Origin: Synergistaceae bacterium
GTDB lineage: Bacteria > Synergistota > Synergistia > Synergistales > Synergistaceae
Reading direction: 5' to 3'
DNA length: 33,995 nt
NCBI GenBank assembly: GCA_031258255.1
Contig: JAIRNC010000021.1
Location: forward strand, 1-33,995
Shown here: positions 1,542 through 33,995 of the stretch, in pieces
How positions within the stretch are numbered: the first letter of the stretch is position 1
Layout of the letters: each line of letters begins with the position of its first letter
Notes under the pieces: generated by a model
Database searches by the model: none
What the model saw: only the letters and a program-made list of their open reading frames with translations
Told to the model about the DNA's origin: nothing
Translations under genes and position numbers: made by a program

Positions 1542-3041
1542 CTACGCCTCCCCCACGACGCGGATCATCTCTTCTGGCGTCGTCTCTCCCGACGCGACGT
1601 TCTCCACGCCCAGATCCAGCAGGGTGCGCATACCGTTCTTCTTCGCCATGTTCTTCAGCGCGGCCGTGCTCTCGCCCGACGATATCGCCTCGGCTATCTC
1701 GAACGTGACGTCGAACTGCTCGTAGAGGCCGAACCGCCCCCTGTATCCCGTATCGCCGCAGAAGCCGCATCCCTCGCCCCTGTAGACGCGAGAGAGGCCG
1801 TACTTCTTCATGGCGGCCGGCGCGGGGAACTCCTTGCGGCATTTCGGGCAGACCCTCCGGACGAGCCGCTGGGCGACGACGCCTAAGAGGGAGCCCGCGA
1901 TGAGGTACGGCTCTATGCCCATATCGACGAGGCGTGACACGGCGCTCACCGAGTCGTTCGTGTGGAGCGTGGAGAGGACGAGGTGCCCGGTCAGGGAGGA
2001 CTGGACGCCGATGTGGGCCGTGTCGAAGTCGCGCATCTCCCCTATCATTATAATGTCCGGGTCCTGCCGCAGGATCGAGCGCAGCGCGCTTGCGAACGTG
2101 ACGCCGGCCTTCTCGTTGACCTGCACCTGCCCAATGCCGGGGACGTCGTACTCTATGGGATCCTCGACCGTGATTATGTTGACCTCCGGGCGCGCCAGGG
2201 CCTGGATGATGGCGTACAGCGAGGTGCTCTTCCCAGAGCCGGTGGGGCCGGTCAGCAGGATCATGCCGTGGGGGTTGCGTATGAGAGAGTCCAGCCTCTC
2301 CTTCTCCTTCGGCGCCATGCCGAGATCCTCCAGCGTCAAAAGCCCCCTGGCCTTGTCAAGGATGCGCATGACCATCCGCTCCCCGTGCTGAGTAGGGAGC
2401 GAGCTCACGCGTATGTCGACGGCCCGGTCGCCCAGCGTGATGCCGATCCTGCCGTCCTGGGGGACGAAGCGCTCGGCTATGTCCATCTTGGCCATGACCT
2501 TGACGCGGCTCGTCACCGGCGACTGATGCCCCTTCGTGAGCTCGTACTTGTCGTGGAGCACACCGTCTATCCTGTATCGCACGAGCAGCTTGTCCTCGAA
2601 CGGCTCCAGGTGGATGTCGGTGGACCTCTCGCGTATGGCTTCCAGCAGTATGCCGTTCACCAGCTTTATGACGGGCGCGTCCACCGTGTCGCTCAAGACC
2701 TCCTGGCGCGCGAGCTGGGAGAGGTCATCCACTGACTCTATCGCGTCCAGCGTCTCCGCGCCCACCCTGCTCTTTAGGTCGTATAGGTTCCTGATGACGG
2801 CCGATATCTCGGCCTCCGGGTATATTGCCACCTGGGCTATCTTCCCGGCGCCCATGGCGAGTATTTGGGCGTCCAGCGTCGCCGACGCGCCCGACGCGGC
2901 TACGACCATGCAGGAACCCCGCAGGTCGATGGGGATTATGCCCTTCTCACGGAGCGCGTCGATGCTCACGCCCTTGGGGATTAGCTCCAGCACGTGTTCG
3001 GACGAGGGCAGTTTTTTAGGCGCTGGCGTCATCCCGCTCAT
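1542..3041 (-). CDS. gspE: Type II secretion system ATPase GspE
   Basis: This 499-residue cytoplasmic AAA-type secretion ATPase powers pseudopilus assembly. An N1E-like domain occupies about residues 1-140. It is followed by the Walker A motif GPTGSGKST near 265-273, the Asp-box segment ITVEDPIEYDVPGIGQVQVN, the Walker B stretch DPDIIMIGEMRD near 327-338, and the His-box TGHLVLSTLHTND. Four cysteines in two pairs (CPKC near 396-399 and CGFC near 425-428) form the zinc-binding element seen in GspE and PilB. The motif GEMRDFDTA replaces the more common GEIRDxETA, a conservative change. It overlaps the gspD stop by four bases and touches gspF. A PilB role is the alternative, but the surrounding gsp genes favour GspE. 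Confidence 0.95.
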   Translation of the reverse strand: MSGMTPAPKKLPSSEHVLELIPKGVSIDALREKGIIPIDLRGSCMVVAASGASATLDAQILAMGAGKIAQVAIYPEAEISAVIRNLYDLKSRVGAETLDAIESVDDLSQLARQEVLSDTVDAPVIKLVNGILLEAIRERSTDIHLEPFEDKLLVRYRIDGVLHDKYELTKGHQSPVTSRVKVMAKMDIAERFVPQDGRIGITLGDRAVDIRVSSLPTQHGERMVMRILDKARGLLTLEDLGMAPKEKERLDSLIRNPHGMILLTGPTGSGKSTSLYAIIQALARPEVNIITVEDPIEYDVPGIGQVQVNEKAGVTFASALRSILRQDPDIIMIGEMRDFDTAHIGVQSSLTGHLVLSTLHTNDSVSAVSRLVDMGIEPYLIAGSLLGVVAQRLVRRVCPKCRKEFPAPAAMKKYGLSRVYRGEGCGFCGDTGYRGRFGLYEQFDVTFEIAEAISSGESTAALKNMAKKNGMRTLLDLGVENVASGETTPEEMIRVVGEA

Positions 3042-5110
3042 CGACCCTCTGATTGCTGGCCGTCCGGCTGACTGGCGTCGGCTTCCGGGCCGTCCTGAGC
3101 CCTGGGCGGGAAAATATCCCCGCTGGACAGCCGCATGGACCCTTGGCTCACGCCCTCCTGCTTGTTCGACTTCTGGAACTCCTCGTAATTTTTTATGAGC
3201 GTCTTAAGCTCGCCCTCGCTCAACGCGGGCTGCCCGACCGTCACGTCGAACGTGGCTTCCGACGCCTGTCTTGGCGTCTCGATGATGCTCGGCGTGAGGA
3301 AGACCATGAGATCGACCTTCTCGCGCTCCCTCGTGGACGACGTGAACAGGTTTCCGACCAGCGGGATATAGGAGATTCCCGGCACCCTGTTTTTGAGGGT
3401 CCTCTCGACCTCCCTGATCAGCCCTCCCAGGATTATCGTGTCGTTGTTCCCCACCTGCACGTTCGTCTGGATGAGCCGCTTCGACGTGGTGGGGGTCTGC
3501 TGGCCCGTGGTCGAGACCAGCTCCTCGATGGTCTGCTCTATGTCGAGCGCCACGAGGTTGCCGCTGCGGATGTGCGGGGTTACCTTCAGGATGAGCCCCG
3601 TGTCCTTGTACTCGTAGCTGCTCTGCACGGCGGATGGGTTGCTCAAGTCCGACGTCGAACCCCTGAGCTGCGGGATGACCTGCCCCACCTGGAGGACGCT
3701 CGGGAGGTTGTCCGTGCACATGAGCCTCGGCATCGAGAGGATGTTTATGGCGTTGAACGTGTTGAGCATCCTTATGTACGCGTAGACGAGCCCCATGCCC
3801 TGCGTGCTGCTCGTCGTGACGAGGTTGCCGTGGGCGTCGTAGTACGTGTCCTCCTTTTTGGTCATCTCCCTGAACCACTGGAGGAACTCCGCCGGGACGC
3901 TCTGAGAGCCGAACTGTGCGTTGCCGCCCACCAGCAGGTTGTCAGCCGCGTTCCCGCCCCATGCCGACCAGTCGATCCCGGCGTTGTTGAGCTTGGAGAG
4001 GTTGACCTCAGCGATGAGCCCCCGCAGCAGAACCTGCTTGGGCTGCGTGTCCAGCTCCTCTATTACCCCCCGTATGGCCGAGTACTGCTCCTGGGTGGCC
4101 GTCAGGATTATGCTGTTAGTGGGCAGGTCCGGCACCACCGTGGAGGGGAACGTCCCCTGCTGATCCGGCTGGAGGCGCGCCGCTACCGAGAGGACCTGGC
4201 TCAGTTGCTCCGAGACGGTCTTGGCGTCCGCGTTCTGGAGCTTGTAGACGTGGAAGTTGCCCACGGTGGCCGGGATGTCCAACTCCGCCAATATCCTCTC
4301 GGCCTCTCGGATGGACTGCCTGGAGCCGACCAGGATGACCTGGCTGCTGCGCTCGTCCCCTATCGCGAACAGCCCCGCGAGCTTTGAAGCCACGTCCTTG
4401 CCGATGGCGTTAAGGTGCCCCTCCACGAGCTTCGCGGACGTGTACTGGAGCGGGATCGTCTTTATCGCCCGGACGCCGTCCGGGACGTCGAGGGCCCTTA
4501 TGATGCTGGCCGCCCGGTTCAAGAGCACGGCCTTGCCCGTGAGCAGGACGCCGGAGCCGGTAGCCAATGGGACGAGGTTTACCCCAGGCGTGCCTAACCT
4601 GACTGGTTCTATGACGTAGCCCGCCTTCACGTAGTCAAGGGGCACTATCTGTATGACGATCTGCTCGCTGGGCGTGACGCTCTGAGGCCCCTTTACGACT
4701 TCGTTCCTGGTGGATGGGCCGGAGCTTATCGGCATCACCTTCGAATAGCCGCCCATGCCCTGGAGGGACAGCCCGTTCATCTCAAGTATGGAGAGCATCA
4801 CCTGCCGCGCCTCGCTGATGGAAACCGTCTTCGGTGAGACCACGGAGACGGCGCCCTTCACGCCTGGGTTCACGACGATGTTCTCGCCCAGCAGCTCCGA
4901 CATGAAGCGTATGAACTGGATGATCTCAAGATCCTTGAAGTTGAACTGCACCCTCCCCGAGGCCCGCATAGCCTGTGCCGCCGCTATGAGGTTCTGCTCG
5001 CTCTCACCGTTCCCGCCGTCCGTCTCGGCGGCGCGGGCCGGCGTCACGAAGACGGCGGCGGCGAGCGCGAGCGCCAGGAGAAAATATGATAAGGCCCCTT
5101 TTCTTGTCAT
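3038..5110 (-). CDS. gspD: Type II secretion system secretin GspD
   Basis: This 690-residue outer-membrane secretin forms the exit channel. An N-terminal signal peptide (basic MTRKG, hydrophobic core, cleavage near ARA-AE at about residues 27-28) is followed by N0 (about 50-115), two to three N1-N3 ring domains rich in the pattern 'VI.L..AD...V...L' (about 150-340), and the secretin core (about 345-630), which ends with the conserved VPGISYIPLVGNLF and a DLMVFLTPSII strand. The C-terminus is a polar tail, where a pilotin-binding segment would lie; no pilotin gene is visible. The ATG is well placed behind GAGGAG (nine bases). An outer-membrane secretin implies a diderm cell. Confidence 0.95.
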   Translation of the reverse strand: MTRKGALSYFLLALALAAAVFVTPARAAETDGGNGESEQNLIAAAQAMRASGRVQFNFKDLEIIQFIRFMSELLGENIVVNPGVKGAVSVVSPKTVSISEARQVMLSILEMNGLSLQGMGGYSKVMPISSGPSTRNEVVKGPQSVTPSEQIVIQIVPLDYVKAGYVIEPVRLGTPGVNLVPLATGSGVLLTGKAVLLNRAASIIRALDVPDGVRAIKTIPLQYTSAKLVEGHLNAIGKDVASKLAGLFAIGDERSSQVILVGSRQSIREAERILAELDIPATVGNFHVYKLQNADAKTVSEQLSQVLSVAARLQPDQQGTFPSTVVPDLPTNSIILTATQEQYSAIRGVIEELDTQPKQVLLRGLIAEVNLSKLNNAGIDWSAWGGNAADNLLVGGNAQFGSQSVPAEFLQWFREMTKKEDTYYDAHGNLVTTSSTQGMGLVYAYIRMLNTFNAINILSMPRLMCTDNLPSVLQVGQVIPQLRGSTSDLSNPSAVQSSYEYKDTGLILKVTPHIRSGNLVALDIEQTIEELVSTTGQQTPTTSKRLIQTNVQVGNNDTIILGGLIREVERTLKNRVPGISYIPLVGNLFTSSTREREKVDLMVFLTPSIIETPRQASEATFDVTVGQPALSEGELKTLIKNYEEFQKSNKQEGVSQGSMRLSSGDIFPPRAQDGPEADASQPDGQQSEGR

Positions 5111-5151
5111 TTATTCCACTCCTCTATGAAAAATTATAGGTTCCACGGCGA

Positions 5152-5604
5152 TTATTGGCCAGAGCGACTGTCACCGGAAGCAGTGAGGTCGCCGGACGCG
5201 GCGGCGAGTTCGGAAAAGGGCAAGAACAGCCTTATGGACTCGTCCCCCTTCTTGAGCTCCATCTCCCTCCACCTGTACTCCCTCTCCACCAGCTTCTCGA
5301 TGTCCACAGACACCGACTGCTCGCTGAACAGCTTCAGCCCCTCCAGGACGAGGGCGCTGTCTAAAAGCTCGTTCATGCTCCTCTCCTCGACCTCCCAGGA
5401 CACGTCGCCGCTCACCCCGAAATCGTTCGTCGGGTCGACGGCGAGCTCAACCATATACCTGTTCGCCTCATCGAGCAGATCCTCCTTCACCCGCACCTGC
5501 GCCAGCCCGCGCTCGGAGAGCATGACGAGCTTGAGCGAGGCGGTGACCACCAGGCCCAGCACCAGGACCGCTATCAAAGCCTCTACCAGCGTGAACCCCC
5601 TCAT
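5152..5604 (-). CDS. Minor pseudopilin, GspI-like
   Basis: This 150-residue type IV pilin-like protein has a three-residue leader and the class III cleavage motif MRG-FTLVEALIAVLVLG, with the conserved Glu at position +5 of the mature protein. A hydrophobic helix is followed by a charged C-terminal domain. I chose the ATG at 5604, not the upstream in-frame start at 5664: it places the leader at the normal three residues and lies one base after the gspC stop. The position between C and D and the FTLVEALIAVLVLG helix fit a minor pseudopilin (GspI or GspH); the C-terminal domain is too divergent for me to separate these two. Confidence 0.75.
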   Translation of the reverse strand: MRGFTLVEALIAVLVLGLVVTASLKLVMLSERGLAQVRVKEDLLDEANRYMVELAVDPTNDFGVSGDVSWEVEERSMNELLDSALVLEGLKLFSEQSVSVDIEKLVEREYRWREMELKKGDESIRLFLPFSELAAASGDLTASGDSRSGQ

Positions 5605-5605
5605 G

Positions 5606-6574
5606 CTATCGCACGGAATAGCGGAGCATCCCGCTTTCCTGCCCCCGTGACATCTGCAGGTCAAATCTGTTGCCCTGCAAGAGCGACTTCATCACGTTCA
5701 GCATGTCCGTGCCGTTGTTGATGGGGATGCCGTTTATGCCCGTGAGGAGGTCGCCCTGCTTTATGCCGAGCTGCGCCAGCAGGTTGTCCGAGCGCACACG
5801 CTGTACCCTCATCCCCTCTGGTTCCGGGACGAGCCTGATGGTCCTCAGTATTTCCATTGGGTTCGCTATGATGTCGTCCAGGAGCTCGCGCGTCAGCGTC
5901 CCCTCGTTGCCGTTGAACTCAGCAGCGGCGATCGACGCGCCCGCAGCCGGCTCGCTCGCCCTGGGCGGGGGCTGTGGCGTTGGCGGCGTCGGGGAGGAGG
6001 CGCCCCTGGGGCCGGAGAGGTTCAAGAAGAGCGGGAAGCTCTCGCCATCCCTCGTGAAGATGACGTCCCCTCTGGCGACGCTCTCCAGCACGTATCCGTT
6101 GAACTCCTGCGTCCTGAGCACGAGCGACGTGGCGCCGTCGACGTTGATCCACGCGCCGACCCTGGGGAGCGTGCCCACCAGCGAGAACGAGTCTATGGGC
6201 TTTGCCTCCGCGACCTCCTCCTTGTCTGCCGAGAGTGGCGTCACGTCGGCTACGCCAAACGCGGCGAACTTGATCTCAGCGTCTTGCCGCATGGCCTCCC
6301 CGGAGACGAAGGGGCTGGGCGGCCTGCGGGACAGCGCCCCGGCCAGGGCTATCTGCTCGCCCGTCGCCCTCGAGGCTATCACCCCGGACAGGGCGGAGCA
6401 GAACACATAGGCTGTCACCAGCCCGATTAGGATGAAGCACGTATACGACGAGAAAGCAAAACGCGCTATGAGGCCCACGACAGGGCGCTTGCGGCCTCCC
6501 TGCGAAATCATGGAGTCTCGGTGCCTCTGGAGGAAATCCTTCAATTTCGCCGCGGCGTCAATTCGATATCGCAT
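5606..6574 (-). CDS. gspC: Type II secretion system protein GspC (HR and PDZ domains)
   Basis: This 322-residue inner-membrane protein links the platform to the secretin. A cytoplasmic N-terminus is followed by a membrane helix (about residues 42-64). The periplasmic homology region (PIDSFSLVGTLPRVGAWIN and the following beta strands, about 130-200) normally binds GspD N0. A Pro-rich linker (PTPPTPQPPPRA) leads to a C-terminal PDZ-like domain (about 245-322) with QLGIKQGDLLTGINGIPINN. The ATG follows GGAGGG by about eight bases and overlaps the preceding gspN-like gene by 17 bases. The domain order is canonical. Confidence 0.9.
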   Translation of the reverse strand: MRYRIDAAAKLKDFLQRHRDSMISQGGRKRPVVGLIARFAFSSYTCFILIGLVTAYVFCSALSGVIASRATGEQIALAGALSRRPPSPFVSGEAMRQDAEIKFAAFGVADVTPLSADKEEVAEAKPIDSFSLVGTLPRVGAWINVDGATSLVLRTQEFNGYVLESVARGDVIFTRDGESFPLFLNLSGPRGASSPTPPTPQPPPRASEPAAGASIAAAEFNGNEGTLTRELLDDIIANPMEILRTIRLVPEPEGMRVQRVRSDNLLAQLGIKQGDLLTGINGIPINNGTDMLNVMKSLLQGNRFDLQMSRGQESGMLRYSVR

Positions 6575-7199
6575 TCTCTTTGACCCTCCACTCGCCAGGG
6601 CCGGCTGATTCCAGATATCTGCCGGCGTACTGCGACCCGACGCCCTTCAACATGACGTCGATGTTTTCCGGCACCTTTATCAGCAAGCTGTTCTCGGTGA
6701 ACGCCCGTTTTCCAGCGTCGTAGCCGAGATCCCCTGTCACCTGCAGGTCGCCGCCGACAGACGCGCCCGTGACTTTGACGCCCTTCCCTGAAAGGGAGAG
6801 CCAGAGCCTCCCGCCGTCGTGGCTGAATATATCCTCCAAGACGTTTTCCATCACGCAAAGCGACGTAGCGCCGCCCGAGAACTCCACGTAGCAGACGGGA
6901 GCGCCGGAGAGGGCGCTTGACAGCGGCAGAAACCTGACCTTGACATCCTTGAGGGTCGTCTTCAGGAGCTTGCCCTCGATGTCAAGGCTCCTTATCCTGT
7001 ACTCGGGAAATATCACCCCGCTGGGCTCAAAGCCGCTATAGGAGACGTACCACCCTTTTTCAGCGGCGGCCAGCCTAGCCTTGCCCCAGGCGTAACGCCC
7101 GCCCTCCTCCCAGGGCGCGAAAAACCACGCGCCCACGAGGAAGGCCGCGACGGTGAGGAGGGCTGAGAGCATGACCCTTAAAATCTTCATCGCGCTCAC
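6558..7199 (-). CDS. Type II secretion system GspN-like protein
   Basis: This 213-residue protein has one N-terminal membrane helix (about residues 8-28) followed by a beta-rich periplasmic domain with the pattern 'F..SG.IFPEYRI.....EG' near 58-75, typical of the GspN family, an accessory T2SS component. It starts with GTG overlapping the preceding stop (GTGA); an ATG three codons further in (7190) is an alternative. It sits between the M-like gene and gspC, an order seen in T2SS clusters of deeper-branching diderms. Function within the family is poorly defined; possible roles are stabilising the inner-membrane platform or periplasmic contact. Confidence 0.7.
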   Translation of the reverse strand: MSAMKILRVMLSALLTVAAFLVGAWFFAPWEEGGRYAWGKARLAAAEKGWYVSYSGFEPSGVIFPEYRIRSLDIEGKLLKTTLKDVKVRFLPLSSALSGAPVCYVEFSGGATSLCVMENVLEDIFSHDGGRLWLSLSGKGVKVTGASVGGDLQVTGDLGYDAGKRAFTENSLLIKVPENIDVMLKGVGSQYAGRYLESAGPGEWRVKENAISN

Positions 7200-7663
7200 T
7201 CCAACAGGAAGCTCGCGTTGAGTACCAGCCCTTCCTTGGTGGAGAGCGTCTTCACCTCGGCCGTCCTCACGCGGAGCCCCTTTTTTTCGATGGCGTCAAG
7301 GAAATCGCCCATCTCCTTGCCGTAAAGGCGATCCAACTGTAGCTGCACCCCTGACGCGTTTGCCTGGAGCTGCGACATCCTGCCCCTCAATTCGAGCGCC
7401 TCCGCCACATCGGAGACCGCCGCCAGCGAATCCGCCCCGGACTGGGGCGCCGGCGCCTGCTGCGCGTCCGGGTATGACCTGTAGACCATCGCGGCGTTTA
7501 TCACCTGGTCGGCGCTGCTCAGGTTGAGCGTTATTTCGTCCTCCATCGCGCTCACCCGCAAGAAGAGCGCGATGAGGGCAACCCAGAGGACGAGCGCGAC
7601 CAAAAAGAGGCGGAACACCCTCCTTGCCTCAGGCATCTCCCTTATCTCGTCGATGGAGACCAT
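7196..7663 (-). CDS. Type II secretion system GspM-like protein
   Basis: This 155-residue bitopic inner-membrane protein has a short cytoplasmic N-terminus, a single hydrophobic helix at about residues 18-36, a periplasmic coiled-coil-like segment (QLQANASGVQLQLDRLYG) and a small alpha/beta domain ending LNASFLLE. This is the GspM (PilO-like) topology. The start chosen is the ATG in the TGATG overlap with gspL; a GTG one codon earlier is also possible. Primary sequence similarity within this family is low, so the call rests on topology, size and position after gspL. Confidence 0.65.
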   Translation of the reverse strand: MVSIDEIREMPEARRVFRLFLVALVLWVALIALFLRVSAMEDEITLNLSSADQVINAAMVYRSYPDAQQAPAPQSGADSLAAVSDVAEALELRGRMSQLQANASGVQLQLDRLYGKEMGDFLDAIEKKGLRVRTAEVKTLSTKEGLVLNASFLLE

Positions 7664-8808
7664 CACTTGCCACCTCTCGATATCGTCAGGTTGAACCGCA
7701 GATAGCCTCCCGGTATCTGCTGGATGTTGTCGCGGGCAGGGACGAAGCCCTCGTCCTCCAAGAACGAGCGCAGACGCTGGATGGACTCGTTGCTCTTGGC
7801 CTTGCCCGTCAAGTCGGTGTTGTCAGCCCCGTATCTCAGTATCTCTATCGAGATGTCGTCCGATGCGCTGAAGTTCTCCCAGGCGGAGGATATGCCCCTC
7901 ATCACGCCGTTAAAGGAGACGTCAGATTCAGGGCCCCCAACGGCCCGGAGCTTCGCGACGGCCGAGCTGAGGGGCGACCCGGCGCTCGCCTCGCCGAACG
8001 CCGCGGCGTAGGCGGCGGCGGATGACGCCCTTCCAGCGGCCAAAACCCTCGAGTCGTGCAGATAAACGCCCAGCGTCAGCAGCAAAAGGACGGCGGCGCT
8101 CGCTACGGCGGCACGCCCAGCCACTGTGAGGGAAGCCACTAGCTTCTCCCGGCGTTCCAGGAGGTTCGTCCCCCTGTTGGAGAGATCCAGGAGGCCGTAG
8201 GCCGGACACCCTGCGATAGAAGCCCCCCCCATCCTCTGCACGTCAAGACGAGAGAGGGCCTTCGCGTCAGCCACGAATACGTTCTGTGCGTCGCGCCCGC
8301 AGGAGGCGACATAAGCCAGCGCCTCCCCCTTCTCGGCCTGTACGTCGCTGTCCTGGGCGCTCGCCGTCTTATAGTACGCCGGCGCCCATCCGTCCAGCCA
8401 GACGGTGGTGATAAAATCGCCGTCCGCCCAGACGATCACCCCGTTGCCGCCGACCTCTGCCGCCGCCACGAGGGGGGCCGGCCACACGGTGTAATTCCCG
8501 TAGCGCCCGCTCTCCCCTATCTCCTCGGTTTCGCCGCCGAAGAGGGTGAACACGCAGCCGCTCGACAGCTTTCTCTCGCTCTTCACGAAAAAGGGCACGA
8601 GCGACACGCCGCCGGACCCCTCGCCCAAAAGCGGCCTGAACTGTATCATGAGCGCGTCCCTGACCCTGGATATGCCGGAAAACGGGAAGGTGAACGCGTG
8701 CGCGGTCATATTCCTGAACGGGTAAAGCAGGACGGCGTTCTCCGGCTGCGCCAGCGCTTCGTGGCTGTCGTCAAAAAGGACAAATTTGTGCGACTGGTTA
8801 TTTTTCAT
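7663..8808 (-). CDS. Type II secretion system GspL-like protein
   Basis: This 381-residue protein has a large cytoplasmic N-terminal half that resembles an actin-like fold in layout, one membrane helix around residues 228-248, and a periplasmic ferredoxin-like domain at the C-terminus (about 290-381, beginning near SDVSFNGVMRGISSAWENF). GspL recruits GspE through the cytoplasmic part and pairs with GspM in the periplasm. It starts nine bases after the gspK stop, with no strong ribosome site, and shares bases with the next start. Cytoplasmic-domain conservation is weak, so exact contacts cannot be read from the sequence. Confidence 0.7.
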   Translation of the reverse strand: MKNNQSHKFVLFDDSHEALAQPENAVLLYPFRNMTAHAFTFPFSGISRVRDALMIQFRPLLGEGSGGVSLVPFFVKSERKLSSGCVFTLFGGETEEIGESGRYGNYTVWPAPLVAAAEVGGNGVIVWADGDFITTVWLDGWAPAYYKTASAQDSDVQAEKGEALAYVASCGRDAQNVFVADAKALSRLDVQRMGGASIAGCPAYGLLDLSNRGTNLLERREKLVASLTVAGRAAVASAAVLLLLTLGVYLHDSRVLAAGRASSAAAYAAAFGEASAGSPLSSAVAKLRAVGGPESDVSFNGVMRGISSAWENFSASDDISIEILRYGADNTDLTGKAKSNESIQRLRSFLEDEGFVPARDNIQQIPGGYLRFNLTISRGGK

Positions 8809-8817
8809 CCCGAATAT

Positions 8818-9738
8818 CTACTCTCTCCAGTTGAGTATTTGGCATCTGCCGCTCCCCCGTCTCATCGTCACCGTGAAATTACGCTCCCTCGCGCCATCTC
8901 CCACGCAGATCATGACAGAAAAATAACTGCTCTTGCCCGATATCACGCCTCCCAGCCGCGTAGCCGCCGCCGGTGAGAAGCCAGGGACCTTCGCCAGGTC
9001 TGACGCGCTTTTCAGGTCGTTGCCCTCCCGATAGGTTATTATAGCGTCAGCCACGTCCGGCCCCGCGTCCTGGTCCAGCACCGCCAGCACGTGCCGGGGC
9101 GCGAAGTTCACGTTGATCTTGTCGTCCCCATAGACAGTGAAATAATCGGCTAGGGAGACGCTGTCGGCGGAGCTGCCGTAAACCATGTCTGCCGTTATCT
9201 CAGGGAGGTGCAGCAGCTCGCTCAGGTCGCTTATCTTCCCGTTCACGAAGTAGTCCTCCTCCCTGCCCCCCGCCCTGGCTTCCATGTCGCTGTCGAGGAA
9301 GTCGAGCGTCACGGTGCCCGTGTTGCCGCCTCCGAAGCGATCCCATATCCCCGTCCACGGGTATTCGTACTCCGCCCTCGTCGTGACGCCGTCCGGCAGG
9401 AAGACGCCGTTTATCGGTATGTGCGCGTCCAGCGGCGTTATCTTGATGCTCACGTCCCATTCGTCGAAGGGCAGGGCTATCGTGAAATCCGGCGCGTACA
9501 GGAACTCCCTGGCAGAGTCGTAATCGTTGCTGTCGCTCGCTATCCACTCTGAGACAGCGCCGCCCGCGATAGCCGCCAAGGTCCTTGAGACGAGGGCGAA
9601 CTCCTCGTCAGAGGCGCGGCGCATCTGTGACCTCGCAAAGAGCGCGAAACTCGTCGAAGCGCCCAGGAGGATGACCGACAGCATGAGGACGGCGACCAGG
9701 ATGAACCCGCCTTCAGCTTTTCGGCAGCCAGATGTCAT
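8818..9738 (-). CDS. gspK: Type II secretion system minor pseudopilin GspK
   Basis: This 306-residue minor pseudopilin is probably part of the I-J-K tip complex. The prepilin signal reads GG-FILVAVLMLSVILLG and lacks the Glu at +5, which is characteristic of GspK among pseudopilins. A large periplasmic domain follows, containing a helix-hairpin-helix-like segment (REGNDLKSASDLAKVPGFS, about residues 230-250) typical of the family. The ATG lies behind a GAGGAGAGG site inside the 3' end of gspJ and overlaps it by 26 bases. The length is close to the usual 300-330. Confidence 0.88.
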   Translation of the reverse strand: MTSGCRKAEGGFILVAVLMLSVILLGASTSFALFARSQMRRASDEEFALVSRTLAAIAGGAVSEWIASDSNDYDSAREFLYAPDFTIALPFDEWDVSIKITPLDAHIPINGVFLPDGVTTRAEYEYPWTGIWDRFGGGNTGTVTLDFLDSDMEARAGGREEDYFVNGKISDLSELLHLPEITADMVYGSSADSVSLADYFTVYGDDKINVNFAPRHVLAVLDQDAGPDVADAIITYREGNDLKSASDLAKVPGFSPAAATRLGGVISGKSSYFSVMICVGDGARERNFTVTMRRGSGRCQILNWRE

Positions 9739-10318
9739 AGTTCCTCTCCTCTTCGCCCCTCTCCTTGCCGTACTTGAGGAAGACCCTTAGAGCCTGCGGC
9801 ATGTCCCCCGTGTACTCGTCCAGCCACTCCCCCCCGCTCAAGGCCTCGAAGCCGACGCTCTCTACCCCTGCCAGGATCAGTCGCCCGTTTTCGGGTTTGA
9901 ACTCATCTACGTTTATCACCCCGGGCCGCCTGTCGTCCGACAGAAGCCACCTGTAAAGGCCTTTCGGGTAGTCACCGCCGAGGACGCTGTCCTGTGGCAC
10001 ACCGAATGCGACCGTACCCATCGGCAGCCGCGCGTAGGACGGGAAGAGCGTCCAGAGCAGGAGGTAGTCCTGTCTCTTGCCCAGAGCGTCGTTGCGCATG
10101 AGCCGCAACGGGCCCGACACGCCGCCAGAGACGAGTTCCCTGGCGCCCTGGGCTATGGCGTTTATCGCGTTGCGCTCCCTGCTCTCCGCCGTGAACGCCG
10201 CCCTGGCCTCGGACATCAGCCTGACGGAGTATACCAGCGGCGCCAAGCCGACTGCCATGATCAAGCCGGCGATCCCTACCACGATGATTACCTCTACGAG
10301 CGTGAAGGCCCTTTTCAT
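9713..10318 (-). CDS. gspJ: Minor pseudopilin, GspJ-like
   Basis: This 201-residue pilin-like protein has the leader MKRA and cleavage before FTLVEVIIVVGIAG, with Glu +5 present. Ala replaces Gly at -1, a known tolerated variant. The periplasmic domain contains WLLSDDRRPGVINVDEF and ends FLKYGKERGEEERNYDIWLPKS, matching the size and layout of GspJ. It lies 13 bases after the O-antigen-ligase-like gene and overlaps gspK. GspJ normally forms the pseudopilus tip with I and K. It is the first clear secretion gene of the run. Confidence 0.78.
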   Translation of the reverse strand: MKRAFTLVEVIIVVGIAGLIMAVGLAPLVYSVRLMSEARAAFTAESRERNAINAIAQGARELVSGGVSGPLRLMRNDALGKRQDYLLLWTLFPSYARLPMGTVAFGVPQDSVLGGDYPKGLYRWLLSDDRRPGVINVDEFKPENGRLILAGVESVGFEALSGGEWLDEYTGDMPQALRVFLKYGKERGEEERNYDIWLPKS

Positions 10319-10331
10319 TCGGACATCCGGG

Positions 10332-12215
10332 CTATTCCAGGGCCTCTTCAGAGCTGTCGAGCTCGGTGAGCCCCTCCACCATGCCGGGGTTGAAATATGT
10401 CGACAGCACCTCCAGAAGCCCCGTGTTCCCGATCTGCCGCGCGTAGTAGGTGACCTCGAACAGCAGTTTCGACGTGGGGCGTCTGTTAAATGCCATGTAG
10501 AGCTGCTCCATGCCTTTGAGGAACGCCTCTTTGTCTTTCTGCGTCATCCCCGCCTCCACCAGGAGGTAGCCGTACTGCTCACGCGCGTCGTCCCTGGACA
10601 TCAGGTACTTTTCAGCGCGTTTCAGCAGATCGTCCTTCTCCCGGAACGTGCTTGGGCTGGCCAACGACTCGAATATCAGCTTGTCCCCCCGCATCCCCCC
10701 GGCGAGAAATACGAAGCCGCAGATGGACACCGCCGCTATGAACACGCCGAACGCCCTGTATACCCACGCGCTGTCCACTGCCGTCCACTTCACGCGCTGC
10801 GGGAGGAGCGACCTGTTGGAAATAGCGAAGGCCAAGGCCATCCAGACGGAGTTTTCGATCCTGTGGAAAGGCCTGCTGAAGAGCGCGTCGAACCAGAGCA
10901 AGAAGAGCATCGCGCAGCCCCAGATGGCTTCCGGCGGCAGTTCCTTTTTCTTCGCCAGGGCCATGAGGAAGGAGTAAAGCCACCATACTGCCATAGCGGC
11001 AAGCAGGAGCGCCCCGGCGAGGCCCGTCTCGCAGAGCCACTGAATGTATTCGCTGTGAGCCCAGTACGTGAACTGCCATTCGTACTCCAGGTCGTCGATG
11101 AGTTCCGGGTGGGAGCGATAGAAGCGCCTCTGCCCGTCGAGGAAGTGCCACTTGTAATGGCCGATGCCTACCCCGGTCAGAGGCCGTATCTTGAATACCT
11201 CGAAGCTCGTCTTCCAGATGCTTATCCTGTTCCCTATAGAGGTGGGGTTTCTGACCATGTCCATCATCTTCGTGACGAGCGTGCTGCCGCGGCCTATCCC
11301 AAAGAGCGAGCCGCCGACTAAGATCACGGCCAGAAGGGCGACCACGACGCCGAAGACCTTGTACGACCGTTTGAGCGCCAGGACGTAACCGCTGCGCCAA
11401 AGCGCCGCGACGAGGACTACAAACGCCACTACGAAGGAGAGGATGCCTCCGCGCGCCGTTGAGTTCCAGAGGCCCCACGAGTTCACGGAAAGGAAAAACA
11501 GGTTGGCCAGCATTGGCGCGAGCAGGCGGGGACGGTCGAGCCACCTCTCGCCCTCATTCCGCAGGCCGACGTATTGCAGGTGGAGGTAGATGCAGTTCAG
11601 CGCCGCCATGGCCATCCAGAGGCCGAACATCTCCTGCTGCGCCGTGTTCCCTATGTAGTTTCCCGGGACGTCGAGTATAAAGTCGAAACCCTTGTTCGCG
11701 CCCGTCATCAGCATCTCGGCGAAGAGCACGTTCACGGACGCGTTCAAGCTGCTGCCCCACATGAGCGCGCGGAGCAGCGTCCCGCCCTTGCAGGCGTTGT
11801 ACGCCAGCATATAGGCCGCGAAGAGGCAGGAGAAGTAAAACCACTCCTTGCCGAACGTGGAATAGCTCGTCATCGGGGTGAAGAGCGGCTGGGCCGTCAC
11901 AAAGAGGACGAGCACGAGCCAGAGCGCGCCGAACGGGTCGAGGATGAAATCGATCCGCTCCAGCTTGCGGGACGCCAGGATCACGCCGGCGGCCAAGGCC
12001 AGCACGCCGATCGGGACCATCGTCACGGCCCACTTCATGATATGCAGCGTGTCGAACCAGTAACGGCCGGAGAAGACGAGATTCGGCAGGGAGAAGGAAA
12101 TCAAAAAGCAGACCCATAGCAGCCACTGCGGGACCAGCGGCGCCTTTCCCGCGAGTTTGCCGCCATTGCCCTTATATTTCGCCCTCTGTGCGGGTTTTTC
12201 GACGATGCCGTCCAT
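10332..12215 (-). CDS. O-antigen ligase/polymerase family membrane protein (Wzy_C-like)
   Basis: This 627-residue polytopic protein has about ten to twelve hydrophobic helices (about residues 25-480). The large periplasmic loop contains the signature-like segment TGVGIGHYKWHF and, further on, WAHSEYIQWLCETGLAG, matching the Wzy_C/WaaL/PglL pattern with an essential His. The C-terminal 150 residues are soluble and helical. The ATG at 12215 overlaps the preceding stop (TGATG); an upstream in-frame start at 12308 would lie inside the ParB-family gene and is less likely. Members either ligate O-antigen to lipid A-core, polymerise O-antigen, or glycosylate proteins (PglL/PilO type). Placement directly upstream of pseudopilin genes raises the protein-glycosylation option, which is inference only. 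Confidence 0.75.
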   Translation of the reverse strand: MDGIVEKPAQRAKYKGNGGKLAGKAPLVPQWLLWVCFLISFSLPNLVFSGRYWFDTLHIMKWAVTMVPIGVLALAAGVILASRKLERIDFILDPFGALWLVLVLFVTAQPLFTPMTSYSTFGKEWFYFSCLFAAYMLAYNACKGGTLLRALMWGSSLNASVNVLFAEMLMTGANKGFDFILDVPGNYIGNTAQQEMFGLWMAMAALNCIYLHLQYVGLRNEGERWLDRPRLLAPMLANLFFLSVNSWGLWNSTARGGILSFVVAFVVLVAALWRSGYVLALKRSYKVFGVVVALLAVILVGGSLFGIGRGSTLVTKMMDMVRNPTSIGNRISIWKTSFEVFKIRPLTGVGIGHYKWHFLDGQRRFYRSHPELIDDLEYEWQFTYWAHSEYIQWLCETGLAGALLLAAMAVWWLYSFLMALAKKKELPPEAIWGCAMLFLLWFDALFSRPFHRIENSVWMALAFAISNRSLLPQRVKWTAVDSAWVYRAFGVFIAAVSICGFVFLAGGMRGDKLIFESLASPSTFREKDDLLKRAEKYLMSRDDAREQYGYLLVEAGMTQKDKEAFLKGMEQLYMAFNRRPTSKLLFEVTYYARQIGNTGLLEVLSTYFNPGMVEGLTELDSSEEALE

Positions 12216-27652: not shown

Positions 27653-29203
27653 ATGAAGCACGATGACAAGAGCGGGGGCATCCTGATACTGGACTTCGGC
27701 TCTCAGTACACGCAGCTGATCGCGCGGAGGGTGCGCGAGTTCGAGGTGTACAGCGAGATACTGCCCTGTAACGCGTCGGTGGGCAAAATCGAGGCGCTGC
27801 GCCCCAAGGGGATAATCCTCTCAGGCGGCCCGCGGAGCACGGTCGGGCCGGACGCGCCCGACATCGACCCGGCCATCATAAAAGGAGGCATCCCGGTGCT
27901 TGGCATATGCTACGGGATGCAGCTCATAGCGAAGACGCTGGGCGGCAGCGTCGAAAAGGGAAGGCTCGGCGAGTACGGCAGGACCCGCGTCAAGTTCGAC
28001 GCGTCGCGCGGAGCCAAGATCATGAATGGCGTCCCTGGCGCGATAGACGTCTGGATGAGCCACTGGGACGAAGTGCGCGAGCTGCCTGTGGGGGCGCTGA
28101 GGCTGGCGGAGAGCGAGTCCGGCGCGTGCGCCGCCTTCTCGATGGAGGGCGACAGGATTACGGCCCTACAGTTCCACCCGGAGGTCGAGACGACCCAGTA
28201 CGGGCGCGAGATGCTGTCATCCTTCGTCTTCGACATCTGCGGATGCAGCGCCAACTGGAAGCTCGGGGACTGGGTAGAGCGTACTCTCGCCGACATAAAG
28301 GAGCAGATCGGCGAGGCGGACAGGGTCGTGTGCGGCCTTTCAGGCGGCGTGGACTCCACCGTAGCGGCAGTCCTCGTATCCAAGGTCGCGGGAGACAGGC
28401 TTGACTGCATCTTCGTCGACCACGGCTTCCTCCGAAAGGACGAGGCGGAGCGCGTGCTGGAGATGTACGAGGCACTTAACCTGCGGGTGCGCCACGTAAG
28501 GGCTGAGGATCGCTTCATGGACGCGCTTGCCGGCGAAACCAGCCCAGAGCGCAAGCGGAAGATAATAGGAGCGCTCTTCGTCCGGATCTTCGAGGAATCA
28601 GCCAGGGCTTCGGGCGACGCGAAGTGGCTGCTCCAGGGGACGATCTACCCAGACGTGATAGAGAGCGGCTTCGTGGGCGGGGACGTCATAAAGAGCCACC
28701 ACAACGTGGGCGGGCTGCCCAGCGACATGAAGATGAGCCTGCTGGAGCCGCTTCGGGAGCTATTCAAGGACGAGGTGCGGAAGATAGGCCCGCTGCTCGA
28801 CATACCGAGTCATTTCCTCAAGCGGCACCCCTTCCCCGGGCCGGGCCTAGCCGTCCGCTGTCTCGGCAGCCTCACCAAGGAGAGGCTGGACACGCTGAGG
28901 GAGGCGGACGCCATTTTCGTGTCGGAGATAAAGTCAGCCGGGCTGTACGACTCGATATGGCAGGCCTTCTGCGTGCTGCTGCCCGTCCGGAGCGTAGGGG
29001 TAGCCGGCGACGCGAGGACTTACGGCGAGACCGTGGCGCTGAGGGCCGTGAAGTCGCTGGACGCGATGACCGCCGAGTCCGTGCGCCTGCCCTGGGATCT
29101 GGTAGACAGGGCAGCCAAGCGGATCTGCGGCGAGGTCCCCCACGTAGGCCGCGTAGTGATGGACGTGACCGGCAAGCCACCCGCGACGATCGAGTGGGAG
29201 TAG
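27653..29203 (+). CDS. guaA: GMP synthase (glutamine-hydrolysing)
   Basis: This 516-residue enzyme converts XMP to GMP with glutamine and ATP. The class I amidotransferase domain has the catalytic Cys86 in GICYGMQ and His175/Glu177 in FHPEVE. The ATP-pyrophosphatase domain carries the P-loop SGGVDST near 230, and the C-terminal dimerisation domain ends KPPATIEWE. The length is normal and all catalytic residues are present. The start lies about 11 bases after GAGAGGAGG. The 3' end is a known integration site of genomic islands, and a lower-GC island begins just after the stop. Confidence 0.97.
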   Translation: MKHDDKSGGILILDFGSQYTQLIARRVREFEVYSEILPCNASVGKIEALRPKGIILSGGPRSTVGPDAPDIDPAIIKGGIPVLGICYGMQLIAKTLGGSVEKGRLGEYGRTRVKFDASRGAKIMNGVPGAIDVWMSHWDEVRELPVGALRLAESESGACAAFSMEGDRITALQFHPEVETTQYGREMLSSFVFDICGCSANWKLGDWVERTLADIKEQIGEADRVVCGLSGGVDSTVAAVLVSKVAGDRLDCIFVDHGFLRKDEAERVLEMYEALNLRVRHVRAEDRFMDALAGETSPERKRKIIGALFVRIFEESARASGDAKWLLQGTIYPDVIESGFVGGDVIKSHHNVGGLPSDMKMSLLEPLRELFKDEVRKIGPLLDIPSHFLKRHPFPGPGLAVRCLGSLTKERLDTLREADAIFVSEIKSAGLYDSIWQAFCVLLPVRSVGVAGDARTYGETVALRAVKSLDAMTAESVRLPWDLVDRAAKRICGEVPHVGRVVMDVTGKPPATIEWE

Positions 29204-29282
29204 TGATGAAACGATGCCAATGAAACGGAACGTTGGATAAACCCTTTATTCATGCGGGTTTGCGGATTCTTGATACCATCTG

Positions 29283-29301
29283 TGGCAACGTTTTGGCAAC
29301 A
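29283..29301. other. tandem TGGCAAC motifs beside the guaA end, possible recombinase sites
   Basis: TGGCAACG (29283-29290) and TGGCAACA (29294-29301) are spaced 11 bases apart, one helical turn, about 80 bases after the guaA stop. Such direct repeats resemble arm-type binding sites of tyrosine integrases near an attachment site. No integrase gene is in the window. A second pair, ATGAAACG at 29206 and 29220, lies just after the stop. Confidence 0.35.
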
Positions 29302-29321
29302 CTAATTGTATTATCCATAAG

Positions 29322-29361
29322 AAAAGAGCTAACTGATTTTGAAGTCAGTTAGCTCTTTTTT
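29322..29361. terminator. strong bidirectional terminator between guaA and abiEii
   Basis: A perfect 15-bp stem (AAAAGAGCTAACTGA with its complement at 29345-29359) has an 8-base loop, T residues after it on the plus strand and A residues before it. It can stop guaA transcription and, in the other direction, the convergent abiE transcript. It lies 119 bases past the guaA stop and within the low-GC region. Confidence 0.88.
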
Positions 29362-29423
29362 GTTTTCGTGCCGTTTGCAACAAACGCAATTTTAGTGCGG
29401 TGTCCATAGGCTCATTACCCCCT

Positions 29424-30951: not shown

Positions 30952-31020
30952 TTACGCCTGAATCTCCGTGCCGTTTTTGAAAGTGAACCGCTCGTCGAAG
31001 TCGGCTATCAGCCCGCCCTG
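30952..31020 (-). pseudogene. C-terminal remnant of a serine site-specific recombinase
   Basis: On the minus strand a short open stretch ends LIADFDERFTFKNGTEIQA then TAA. Large serine recombinases of Firmicutes ICEs commonly end with a segment 'IxEFDE' and, some 15-20 residues later, 'I(R/T)FTFK(D/N)G(T/S)EI'. Here the two are joined directly, as if by internal deletion. Upstream coding is lost where the 59-bp repeat begins. No catalytic domain is present, so this is a fossil of the element's recombination gene. The assignment rests on recall of the motif and is moderate. Confidence 0.45.
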
Positions 31021-31078
31021 CGCGGTGTATCATGTATGTCCCCTGAGGTCTGGTGTCTGCGCGTCGCTCTTTCTCTGA
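31020..31078. repeat. 59-bp direct repeat, left copy
   Basis: This stretch is identical in all 59 bases and in orientation to 33793-33851. It begins GCGCGGTGTATCATG and ends GCTCTTTCTCTGA. The pair encloses the small regulator, methyltransferase, putative endonuclease and broken vsr gene. The left copy joins the recombinase remnant on one side and an inverted repeat on the other. Confidence 0.95.
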
Positions 31079-31079
31079 T

Positions 31080-31170
31080 ATAATACTCACTCAAAACTTA
31101 GAACCGTTGCGGCATAAAGGATTCATCCCTAAAAATGGCTGTTTTGAGTGTGTATTATCCCATTTTTAGG
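31080..31170. repeat. two interlocking inverted repeats ahead of the RM operon
   Basis: Arm A (31080-31097, core TAATACTCACTCAAAAC) pairs with 31141-31158 with one mismatch. Arm B (31128-31138, CCTAAAAATGG) pairs perfectly with 31160-31170. The arms alternate A-B-A'-B', so the stems either form a pseudoknot or exclude each other in RNA. A further short pair is CTTAGAA/TTCTAAG (31097-31103 with 31185-31191). The outer arm also carries TA at its ends, as in small non-autonomous elements that insert at TA. It starts two bases from the end of the 59-bp repeat. Confidence 0.6.
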
Positions 31171-31208
31171 TTATAAAGCAGAATTTCTAAGCCGGATAAA
31201 AGATTATC

Positions 31209-31237
31209 TTGATGTTTTCTTTTCTGCGAGTTACAAT
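31209..31237 (+). promoter_or_regulatory. promoter of the restriction-modification operon
   Basis: TTGATG (31209-31214), a 17-base spacer and TACAAT (31232-31237) form a good sigma70-type promoter 43 bases ahead of the small regulator start. I see no clear C-box in or after it. Confidence 0.65.
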
Positions 31238-31279
31238 ACGTAGTAGGAAAATGCGCCCACCCGCTTGAGGAGACACAAT

Positions 31280-31489
31280 ATGTCGATCAGTTATGATAAG
31301 TTATGGAAACTGTTGATAGATAAGAAAATGAATCGTACCCAATTGAAAGAAGCGGCGGGTATCAGTTTCAATGTATTGGCAAAAATGGGCAAGCGCGAGC
31401 CGATATCAATGGAGAGCATGTTGAAGGTATGCAAAGCGCTTGATTGCGACATATCAGATGTGATGGAGATTGAAAAGGCGGAACAATAG
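31280..31489 (+). CDS. Small Xre/Cro-C1 type HTH regulator
   Basis: This 69-residue protein consists of one helix-turn-helix of the Cro/C1 (HTH_26) type: LWKLLIDKKMNRTQLKEAAG, then ISFNVLAKMGKREPISMESMLKVCKALDCDISDVMEI. The start at 31280 lies seven bases after GAGGAG; the frame's earlier ATG at 31265 has no site. It precedes the methyltransferase by 37 bases and is the likely controller of the cassette, similar in position to C proteins of type II systems, although the family is broad and a general regulator is possible. Confidence 0.8.
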   Translation: MSISYDKLWKLLIDKKMNRTQLKEAAGISFNVLAKMGKREPISMESMLKVCKALDCDISDVMEIEKAEQ

Positions 31490-31526
31490 GATTTTGCGGA
31501 AACTTTGCTCAAAAGGAGATCTGAAA

Positions 31527-32663
31527 ATGGCGATAATACAGGAATTGAAAACGCAACAAGTTGATTTGTCCAATGCGCCTTGGACAATGCACGAGTTTTT
31601 CGCCGGAAGCGGCCTGGTCGCCTATGGATTAAAAGATATGTTCAGCCCAATATGGGCAAATGATATCAGCGACAAAAAGGTTGCGGTTTACCACGCGAAT
31701 TTCAAGAGCAATCATTTTGTTTTAGACGATATAAAGAATATAAATGGGACGGATTTGCCCTATGCGCATTTGTCTTGGGCGAGTTTTCCCTGCCAAGATT
31801 TATCCCTCGCCGGGTCATTGGGCGGGATCGACGCGGCGCGCAGCGGGCTTGTGTGGGAATGGCTCCGCATACTGCGTGAGATGCCGCGCCGTCCGGCGAT
31901 TTTGCTGGTGGAGAACGTTGCGGGATTGCTTTCAACGAACAAGGGCGGGAACTACGCCAAACTTCATTACGCTTTAATGGAACTTGGTTATAAGAGCGGC
32001 GCGATGCTGATCGACGCGGTTCATTTTGTCCCACAATCAAGACCGCGCGTGTTTATCATAGCAGTCAGAAGCAATATTGACGTTCCGCGCGAATTGACGG
32101 ATATCGGGCCAAATTGGCTGCACAATAAGGCTGCCGCCGATTTGGGGAAGATTTTGCCGGGATGGATTTGGTGGCGCGCCGAAAAACCGCGAAAACGGCT
32201 CGGACAGTTGACGGACGTGATTGACTTTTCCATTCCCTACGATAAGGACAATGTGCTGCGGCTCATGTCTCCGCGCCACAAAGCAAGGCTTGACAGTATG
32301 GAGAACGCCGTTGTAACGGGTTATCGCAGGACGCGCGACGGTAAACAGTGCTTGGAATTGCGTTTTGACGATGTGGCGGGATGCCTGCGGACGCCGAAGG
32401 GCGGCAGCAGCAAACAATTTCTCATTGTCAAGCGCGACGGCGAACTGCACGCGCGGGTATTGTCTCCGCGCGAAACCGCGCGGTTGATGGGCGCACCGGA
32501 TAGTTTCGTATTGCCGGACGCCTATAACGACGGCTATAAGGCTATGGGGGATGCCGTAGCCATGCCCGTTGCGACATTTATCGGGGAATCATTATTGACA
32601 AAATTAGCGGAGGTGGCATATGGTGAGCGATGCGACGTCGAATCAGTACAGATATCCGTCTGA
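31527..32663 (+). CDS. DNA (cytosine-5) methyltransferase
   Basis: This 378-residue C5 methyltransferase transfers a methyl group from SAM to cytosine in a specific DNA site. Motif I FFAGSGLVAYGL is near residue 24, the catalytic Cys89 lies in SFPCQDLS, ENV at 129-131, QSRPRVFII at 170, the target-recognition region is about 190-300, and motif IX/X reads LSPRETARLMGAPDSFVLP and YKAMGDAVAMPV. All key motifs are intact. The ATG follows AAAAGGAG by about nine bases; an in-frame ATG at 31470 overlaps the regulator. It overlaps the next gene by 44 bases. The recognition site cannot be read from the sequence. Confidence 0.93.
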   Translation: MAIIQELKTQQVDLSNAPWTMHEFFAGSGLVAYGLKDMFSPIWANDISDKKVAVYHANFKSNHFVLDDIKNINGTDLPYAHLSWASFPCQDLSLAGSLGGIDAARSGLVWEWLRILREMPRRPAILLVENVAGLLSTNKGGNYAKLHYALMELGYKSGAMLIDAVHFVPQSRPRVFIIAVRSNIDVPRELTDIGPNWLHNKAAADLGKILPGWIWWRAEKPRKRLGQLTDVIDFSIPYDKDNVLRLMSPRHKARLDSMENAVVTGYRRTRDGKQCLELRFDDVAGCLRTPKGGSSKQFLIVKRDGELHARVLSPRETARLMGAPDSFVLPDAYNDGYKAMGDAVAMPVATFIGESLLTKLAEVAYGERCDVESVQISV

Positions 32664-33609
32664 ACCTGATGAATCAAGTTCATCAATTAAATTATGTGAA
32701 TTTCAAACAGAATACAAAACGGTTACAAAAGGCCCGCTCGCTTTGCTGATTCAATTGACAAGACAAGCCAGTACCAAAGATTTTCCTCTCAATCCAGATG
32801 ATTTTTTGACTGAGAACAAAGGGCAGGTTGCGGGCTTGGGCGGCGCAAATCTCAAGAAAATACTTAAAGAGCATGGCATCACCCAAATGTTGGCCTCGGA
32901 GGGCGGCAGGACAAGCCGAGGCAATATGGGTCTGATGATGAAGTATATTGGTTTCTTGAATGAGCTGCATGATAATATAGGAAGCGTGGATTTCAAAGCG
33001 TTGGAAGCCAATTGGGCTGAACAAATACGTGAGTTTTTTCGCAATCAGCCCTTTGTATTGACCGCCGATACGTCAAGAACCGTGGCTGCAAGCCTCAACG
33101 AGCTATTTGACCAAGCGAGAGCGCGGCAGAAGCAGAATCAGGGAACACAATACTTGGGCGCAATGCTGCAACACTTGGTGGCGGCGAAACTGATGGTTGT
33201 CATGCCGCAGGACAGCTTTGAAATACACGGCGCCTATGTCGCCGATTCACCGACCGTCAGAAGCGGTGATTTCGTAATCGGCAAAACCATTATTCACTGC
33301 ACGACCGCTCCGGGCGAGCCTTTAATCCAAAAATGCGCCGCCAATATCCGCGCAGGATGTCAGCCGATTATCATTACGATATTTGAGCGCGTCCGCACGG
33401 CGTTCGATTTGGCCGCCGACGCGGGTATAAGCGGACGGGTTGACGTTTGGGACGTGCAGCAATTCCTGTCAACCAACGTGAATGAACACAGCCTGTTTGA
33501 CGGCACCGCGAGAAACGCCAAGTTGGCGGATATTATCGAGAAGTACAACGCGATTATTGAGGAAGTTGAAACCGATCCAAGTCTGCGGATTGAGTTTGAG
33601 GCGAAGTGA
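32620..33609 (+). CDS. DUF4928-type protein, putative type II restriction endonuclease
   Basis: This 329-residue protein overlaps the methyltransferase by 44 bases and starts with ATG behind GCGGAGGTGG. It resembles the DUF4928 family, which is regularly encoded beside C5 methyltransferases. A candidate nuclease core is SGDFVIGKTIIHCTTAPGE (about residues 218-236), where an Asp is followed by a beta strand and a His/Thr-rich strand, and then 'LIQKCAANI.AG..PIIIT'. A canonical PD-(D/E)XK pair is not obvious. No other domains are recognised. Its position strongly suggests the cognate endonuclease, but this is inferred from context and family recall. Confidence 0.6.
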   Translation: MVSDATSNQYRYPSEPDESSSSIKLCEFQTEYKTVTKGPLALLIQLTRQASTKDFPLNPDDFLTENKGQVAGLGGANLKKILKEHGITQMLASEGGRTSRGNMGLMMKYIGFLNELHDNIGSVDFKALEANWAEQIREFFRNQPFVLTADTSRTVAASLNELFDQARARQKQNQGTQYLGAMLQHLVAAKLMVVMPQDSFEIHGAYVADSPTVRSGDFVIGKTIIHCTTAPGEPLIQKCAANIRAGCQPIIITIFERVRTAFDLAADAGISGRVDVWDVQQFLSTNVNEHSLFDGTARNAKLADIIEKYNAIIEEVETDPSLRIEFEAK

Positions 33610-33615
33610 TAGATT

Positions 33616-33726
33616 ATGCCCGATATGTTTGACCCGCAAAAGCGGAGTGAAATCATGGCGAAAGTTCATGGCGCCAACACCACGCCGGAGATTCGCGTCT
33701 GTAAGTTGCTCCATAGCATGGGTTAA
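33616..33726 (+). pseudogene. Very-short-patch-repair endonuclease (Vsr), truncated N-terminus
   Basis: The frame reads MPDMFDPQKRSEIMAKVHG, then ANTTPEIRVCKLLHSMG and stops with TAA after 36 residues. Vsr proteins are about 130-150 residues long and begin in this way (MPD.F...KRS.IM..I...NT.PE..VR..LH..G(Y/F)R). The catalytic Asp and His residues that follow are missing; the sequence after the stop is unrelated and runs into the right 59-bp repeat. Vsr corrects T:G mismatches arising from deamination at 5-methylcytosine, so the complete gene once served the methyltransferase. It starts six bases after the endonuclease stop. Confidence 0.75.
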
Positions 33727-33792
33727 GCGCAAGCGCAGGCGCGGACCTACGGCAGGGCGAGATGCGCAATATTTTTATAGCGGGGACGCGCG

Positions 33793-33851
33793 GCGCGGTG
33801 TATCATGTATGTCCCCTGAGGTCTGGTGTCTGCGCGTCGCTCTTTCTCTGA
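33793..33851. repeat. 59-bp direct repeat, right copy
   Basis: Perfect copy of 31020-31078 in the same orientation, 2773 bases further on. Beyond the repeat, GTCCCCTGAGG (33811-33821) is partly complementary to CCTTGAGGGGAC (33862-33873), giving a hairpin that the left copy cannot form because its flank differs. This copy may therefore represent the more complete version of the repeat unit. Confidence 0.95.
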
Positions 33852-33995
33852 GGCGTCGTCCTTGAGGGGACTAGGGCGGGGACGATTGTTAGGCCGCTGA
33901 GTGAAATGATATTGTTTTTTCTGGGCGAGTCCTGTAGAATATAAATACAGCATCCGTGCGTAGATTTAGTCGTCCGTATTTTATGTATTTTTAAA
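33852..33995. other. terminal non-coding stretch, no gene seen
   Basis: I see no supportable gene here. A GGGGAC-rich segment (33868-33890) and a small hairpin CTGTA/TACAG near 33941-33960 are present. Short minus-strand frames exist but have no recognisable similarity. The region is cut by the window edge. Confidence 0.5.

Follow-up and report, generated by a model that had tools for sequence, protein, structure and literature searches.

A type II restriction-modification gene set between perfect 59-bp direct repeats within a guaA island of a Synergistaceae bacterium

Some restriction-modification (R-M) systems are known to insert without the help of a mobile element while generating long target duplications of variable length, on the order of 100 bp (PMC3874152; see also PMC3031569 and PMC1643837), and this type of insertion is credited, as cited in these three articles, to Nobusato et al. 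2000 and Furuta et al. 2010. The 3' end of guaA, with the core sequence GAGTGGGA, is a known integration site for integrative mobilizable elements (IMEs) and islands (PMC9376610), and one such IME is ATE-1, which carries a tyrosine integrase and a MobV relaxase (PMC5704250).

In the current work, a repeat-bracketed R-M gene set was analyzed in a stretch of 33,995 nucleotides (hereafter referred to as the window), which represents the whole of contig C36 of a Synergistaceae MAG; this contig stops 144 bp past the right-hand repeat copy, because of which the right side of the locus is poorly known. The arrival of the gene set, previously proposed to be lost or gained as a free unit of 2.8 kb, is better explained by an IME that integrates at guaA.

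The direct repeat and the DNA between its copies

From guaA to the right-hand copy of the repeat, the window contains the following features:

27653-29203, + strand: guaA (GMP synthase; NF000848, 715 bits), with the 3' end GAGTGGGAGTAG at 29192, the attachment (att) core of guaA elements
29276-29364, + strand: element-end segment, similar to the end segment of the guaA-type element in locus L076
29427-30853, - strand: AbiEi/AbiEii toxin-antitoxin pair (PF13338, PF08843; PADLOC AbiEi, AbiEii), island cargo between guaA and the left repeat
31020-31078, + strand: left copy of the 59-bp direct repeat (from the sequence and a repeat search)
31079-31174, unstranded: 96 bp of non-R-M DNA adjoining the left repeat, to the left of the start of homology to the R-M region of L052
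31280-31486, + strand: small HTH regulator (HTH_26) of 69 aa (Pfam PF13443, E 1.7e-16; 100% aa identity over 69 aa to L052)
31527-32660, + strand: C5-cytosine DNA methyltransferase, M (PF00145, E 2.3e-47; 83% aa identity to L052 and L053)
32620-33606, + strand: DUF4928 protein, probable restriction endonuclease, R (PF16280, E 5.9e-54; PADLOC REase_II, E 1.1e-42)
33616-33723, + strand: Vsr mismatch endonuclease, V, truncated after 36 codons (PF03852, E 4.2e-8, profile positions 2-35 of 74)
33726-33792, unstranded: 67-bp segment between the Vsr break and the right repeat
33793-33851, + strand: right copy of the 59-bp direct repeat, within a stretch rich in GGGGAC/GTCCCC

The two 59-mers, reported as perfect in the preliminary description of this locus, are indeed 100% identical, with a start-to-start distance of 2773 bp, and such a match is far above chance: 59 bp is the longest exact direct repeat of the window, while 30 first-order Markov simulations reach 13-17 bp. 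When the repeat is extended leftward to 65 bp, identity between the copies amounts to 97%, and only three of 80 other loci (855 kb) contain exact direct repeats that are 40 bp or longer and spaced 1-5 kb apart. The perfect identity had also been taken as a sign of recent origin, which is a weak argument because a repeat of 59 bp limits divergence only loosely.

Within its own assembled genome (a 2.3-Mb MAG consisting of 130 contigs and 85% complete) the 59-mer is present in two copies, with none elsewhere, so that it does not have the distribution of a common dispersed repeat, the pattern named in the preliminary description as speaking against a cassette-associated repeat; the further copies with other cargo which that description envisaged were absent as well. 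No match to a 20-nt core of the 59-mer was obtained in 85,000 GTDB species genomes or in IMG/VR, and a search of 60 relatives for this core, allowing up to 3 mismatches, returned unrelated near matches alone, mostly in coding sequence. The best two of these lie inside an OppB-like coding region and were attributed to chance, and the six matches to an 18-mer of the repeat in IMG/VR reach just 22-23 bp and were discarded as being near chance. Comparison of the cassette with 53 genomes of the family generated matches to R-M coding sequence only and none to the flanks.

The 59-mer itself has no tendency to fold (z = 0.55) and does not coincide with any tRNA or gene end that could be found; an Rfam and tRNA search of the repeat and cassette region returned nothing, and joining the two flanks in silico as an empty site restored no notable ORF. 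The outer flanks differ from one another, as first described, and the right side is GGGGAC-rich (three GGGGAC and one GTCCCC at 33782-33883), but the supposed recombinase remnant on the left could not be confirmed: it comprises 24-25 aa and has no Pfam, plasmid or phage match. This candidate was rejected, no similar C-terminus being present in the fetched loci and the one PF07508 recombinase of the genome having a different end.

As predicted from its genes, the cassette is a type II R-M system composed of a C5 methyltransferase and a DUF4928 predicted endonuclease, with its M and R genes intact; their alignments to relatives are uninterrupted. The Vsr homology, as compared with five intact Vsr genes, breaks off sharply at 33725. 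The repeats therefore enclose the R-M genes, yet not simply a whole operon as had been proposed, since the last gene is a truncated Vsr and the enclosed DNA includes 96 + 67 bp of non-R-M sequence. Homology to L052 begins at 31175 and continues to the end of R (82% DNA identity over 2435 bp), and the R-M homology overall spans 31175-33725; both of its breaks are sharp and located between the 59-mers, from which they are separated by the 96-bp and 67-bp segments. The former segment, single copy in its own genome, contains an imperfect inverted repeat (arms 31080-31097 and 31140-31157) with a significant DNA fold (z = -4.08), and the latter matches nothing in V homologues, relatives, plasmids or phages. 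No transposase or integrase is present among the genes identified between the 59-mers, and a composite transposon was rejected on the grounds that the repeats are just 59 bp and that no transposase was identified between them. Related R-M systems were not found in IMG/VR.

The guaA island and relatives carrying the same genes

The window has the arrangement of a guaA element, with island sequence immediately following guaA and an att core at 29192, and the DNA behind guaA varies among relatives in the family. The element-end segment matches that of L076 with 85% identity over 91 bp (E 1.7e-18; alignment score 70 versus a shuffle maximum of 32), and in L076 the matching element end comes after a GAGTGGGAATAA core. 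A search for a second att core in the own genome, using the 20-nt guaA-end pattern with up to 3 mismatches, yielded one match only, the contig ending early, and a search of the window alone with a shorter att core revealed no second copy at the far end. Of the genes identified from guaA to the end of the contig, none encodes a tyrosine integrase or a relaxase. The AbiEi/AbiEii pair of the island has its nearest homologues in the family at only approximately 45% identity.

The most informative relative is L052, from a Clostridiales Family XIII MAG, which contains a complete guaA IME (1679-12097) with GAGTGGGA att cores at 1679 and 12086 and the gene order guaA, tyrosine integrase (PF00589), NikA-like protein, Mob_Pre relaxase, regulator, M, R, AIPR and Vsr. 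Its regulator is identical to that of the window in 69 of 69 residues, and M and R each show 83% aa identity. The L052 element has an AIPR gene inserted between R and Vsr, and also encodes a membrane protein (8xMP).

In L053 (Synergistales), guaA and the same element end are followed by a regulator truncated at its 5' end, M, R and an intact Vsr (5813-8450), with no integrase or relaxase homologue between guaA and the R-M genes; as judged from this gene order, L053 is an internally decayed, putative derivative of the same guaA element. Integrase, helicase-like and Mob_Pre genes are located upstream of homologous M-R-V genes in L076, L080, L081 and L082. Because the L052 relative carries the same genes in a complete guaA element, we take the R-M genes found in the window to be putative cargo of a guaA IME, the transfer genes of which would have been lost or be located elsewhere. 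Loss or gain as a 2.8-kb unit, as proposed in the preliminary description, found no counterpart in the assembly or in relatives, where no excised, circular, empty or single-copy junction form was detected.

Several further relatives illustrate other contexts. Downstream of M-R-V in L076 (8477-11349), a second C5 methyltransferase and a GmrSD_N-domain protein make up a defence-gene cluster. L025/L098 (G015:C68) has homologous M and Vsr genes near an hpf-like gene, together with an endonuclease gene carrying an internal deletion, and represents an R-minus relic. L122 (5538-11992) harbors a degraded methyltransferase relative in a segment flanked by a 46-bp tRNA 3'-end repeat, which is a different type of integration site.

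Origin of the 59-bp repeats

The account that we tentatively favor, and to which we assign a little less than an even chance, combines guaA IME cargo with a secondary insertion involving a 59-bp target duplication. The block consisting of regulator, M, R and truncated Vsr would be surviving cargo of an IME which uses the 3' end of guaA and which would move between phyla of gut bacteria. This block, with its ragged ends (Vsr cut at 33725 and 96 bp of hairpin DNA left), would have been inserted or rearranged within the guaA island, 59 bp of target DNA being duplicated in the process, and the duplication would now persist as a passive 59-bp pair, from which homologous recombination could in principle delete a 2.77-kb unit. 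Recombination between repeats of 59 bp is possible, and, should R be active, post-segregational killing could act against loss of the unit.

Target duplication is the most likely reading of how the 59-mers arose, though at below even odds. The perfect repeat, the absence of a further copy in the assembly and the lack of a transposase or integrase inside it are consistent with such an event. An empty-site allele was not found in any relative, and no relative carries the site or its flanks. A simple target duplication is argued against by the fact that the 59-mers do not abut the breaks in R-M homology: with 96 + 67 bp of other DNA inside the repeats, an inserted unit would have carried extra DNA. 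Uniqueness in the assembly favors target duplication and other local duplication alike, and a relative, L077, provides a warning that dispersed elements have to be considered.

The L077 locus contains a homologous cassette, with its Vsr broken, between copies of a 74-77 bp sequence (a 74-bp perfect repeat), and a third copy of this sequence is present on another contig (G077:C36:824-900) near a toxin-antitoxin-like gene pair, where it shares a longer element with the right copy of L077. It was considered as a second case of target duplication and was ruled out by the third copy and the longer common element, which identify it as a dispersed repeat. By analogy, the 59-mer could be part of a small dispersed element (a REP, a MITE or an IS end), two copies of which happen to flank the cassette; the right copy, equipped with GGGGAC/GTCCCC arms, would be the more complete of the two and would have cut the Vsr gene upon arriving. 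This reading, unlikely although the foremost of the competing ones, is in line with the position of the right copy in the GGGGAC/GTCCCC cluster and with the frequent loss of dispersed repeats from MAG assemblies, but is opposed by the presence of only two copies in 2.3 Mb, by the failure to find a similar copy in the 60 relatives (3 mismatches) or, for the core, in GTDB or IMG/VR, and by a 59-mer that does not fold. Moreover, the genome shows no enrichment of GGGGAC-GTCCCC palindromes (4 sites versus 9 control sites); a REP/GGGGAC family was rejected on this count and because the other three sites lie inside coding-like sequence.

The 59-mers might also be what is left after the locus underwent a tandem duplication or an unequal exchange, the ragged ends having been created by subsequent deletions. 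From the breaks at 31175 and 33725 it is evident that rearrangement took place several times, and only part of a longer repeat unit may survive, yet nothing outside the 59-mer (65 bp at 97%) is present twice, and we regard this origin as improbable.

Two other readings carry a lower probability still. The R-M block could be an autonomous mobile unit that left the IME and inserts itself with long target duplications, perhaps by means of restriction-generated breaks and copying of the target ends, with the left-end hairpin perhaps being within the unit; we consider this to be a rather distant prospect. Equally doubtful is an assembly artefact, in which the second copy, or a join near the contig end, would be false. 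The proximity of the contig end to the right copy, the 130 contigs and 85% completeness of the MAG, and the coincidence of the repeat length with an assembler k point in this direction; 59 is among the default k values of MEGAHIT, and contigs of related MAGs bear MEGAHIT-style 'k119' names. However, the two 59-mers lie inside a single contig and differ in their flanks on either side, and an ambiguity of the assembly graph at k = 59 would as a rule cause a contig break, while longer k values span the 59-mer.

That the 59-mers represent attL and attR of a site-specific R-M-carrying element mobilized in trans is very improbable, even though direct repeats of such length are known as att sites and the degraded methyltransferase of L122 lies between tRNA-end repeats, because the integrases associated with these genes belong to a family whose site is GAGTGGGA at guaA, and the 59-mer, being without this core, with no tRNA or gene end found at it and no integrase nearby or between its copies, is on sequence grounds not the predicted att site of the guaA element.

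Comparison with described systems

The window agrees with guaA IMEs and islands (ATE-1 and GIsul2, with a tyrosine integrase) in its position at the guaA 3' end and in the GAGTGGGA core on the guaA side, and its cargo is homologous to that of the complete guaA element in L052. Unlike these elements, the window copy is without an integrase, relaxase or second att core and is a remnant. As in SGI1-related Marinobacter elements (PMC9035990), a C5 methyltransferase, a DUF4928 protein and Vsr occur together on an integrated island; in contrast to the M-R-V set of the latter, the window adds a small HTH regulator and its Vsr is broken. One R-M family (M, DUF4928 R and Vsr) is accordingly tied to guaA-integrating mobilizable elements that Synergistota and Clostridia have in common among gut bacteria.

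As regards the R-M insertions of Nobusato et al. and Furuta et al., in the form in which the citing articles present them, the window differs in the 96 + 67 bp of non-R-M DNA inside the repeats, in the truncated Vsr, in its guaA-island location and in that no empty-site allele was found. It shares with them a type II R-M system between long perfect direct repeats, no transposase, and a repeat without dispersed copies in the assembly. Should an empty site be found, the manner in which R-M genes move without a transposase would become testable at a defined junction. The repeat-bracketed cassette resembles a pattern already described for R-M gene sets, and is a candidate for extending R-M insertion with long target duplication to organisms other than those in which it was originally described.
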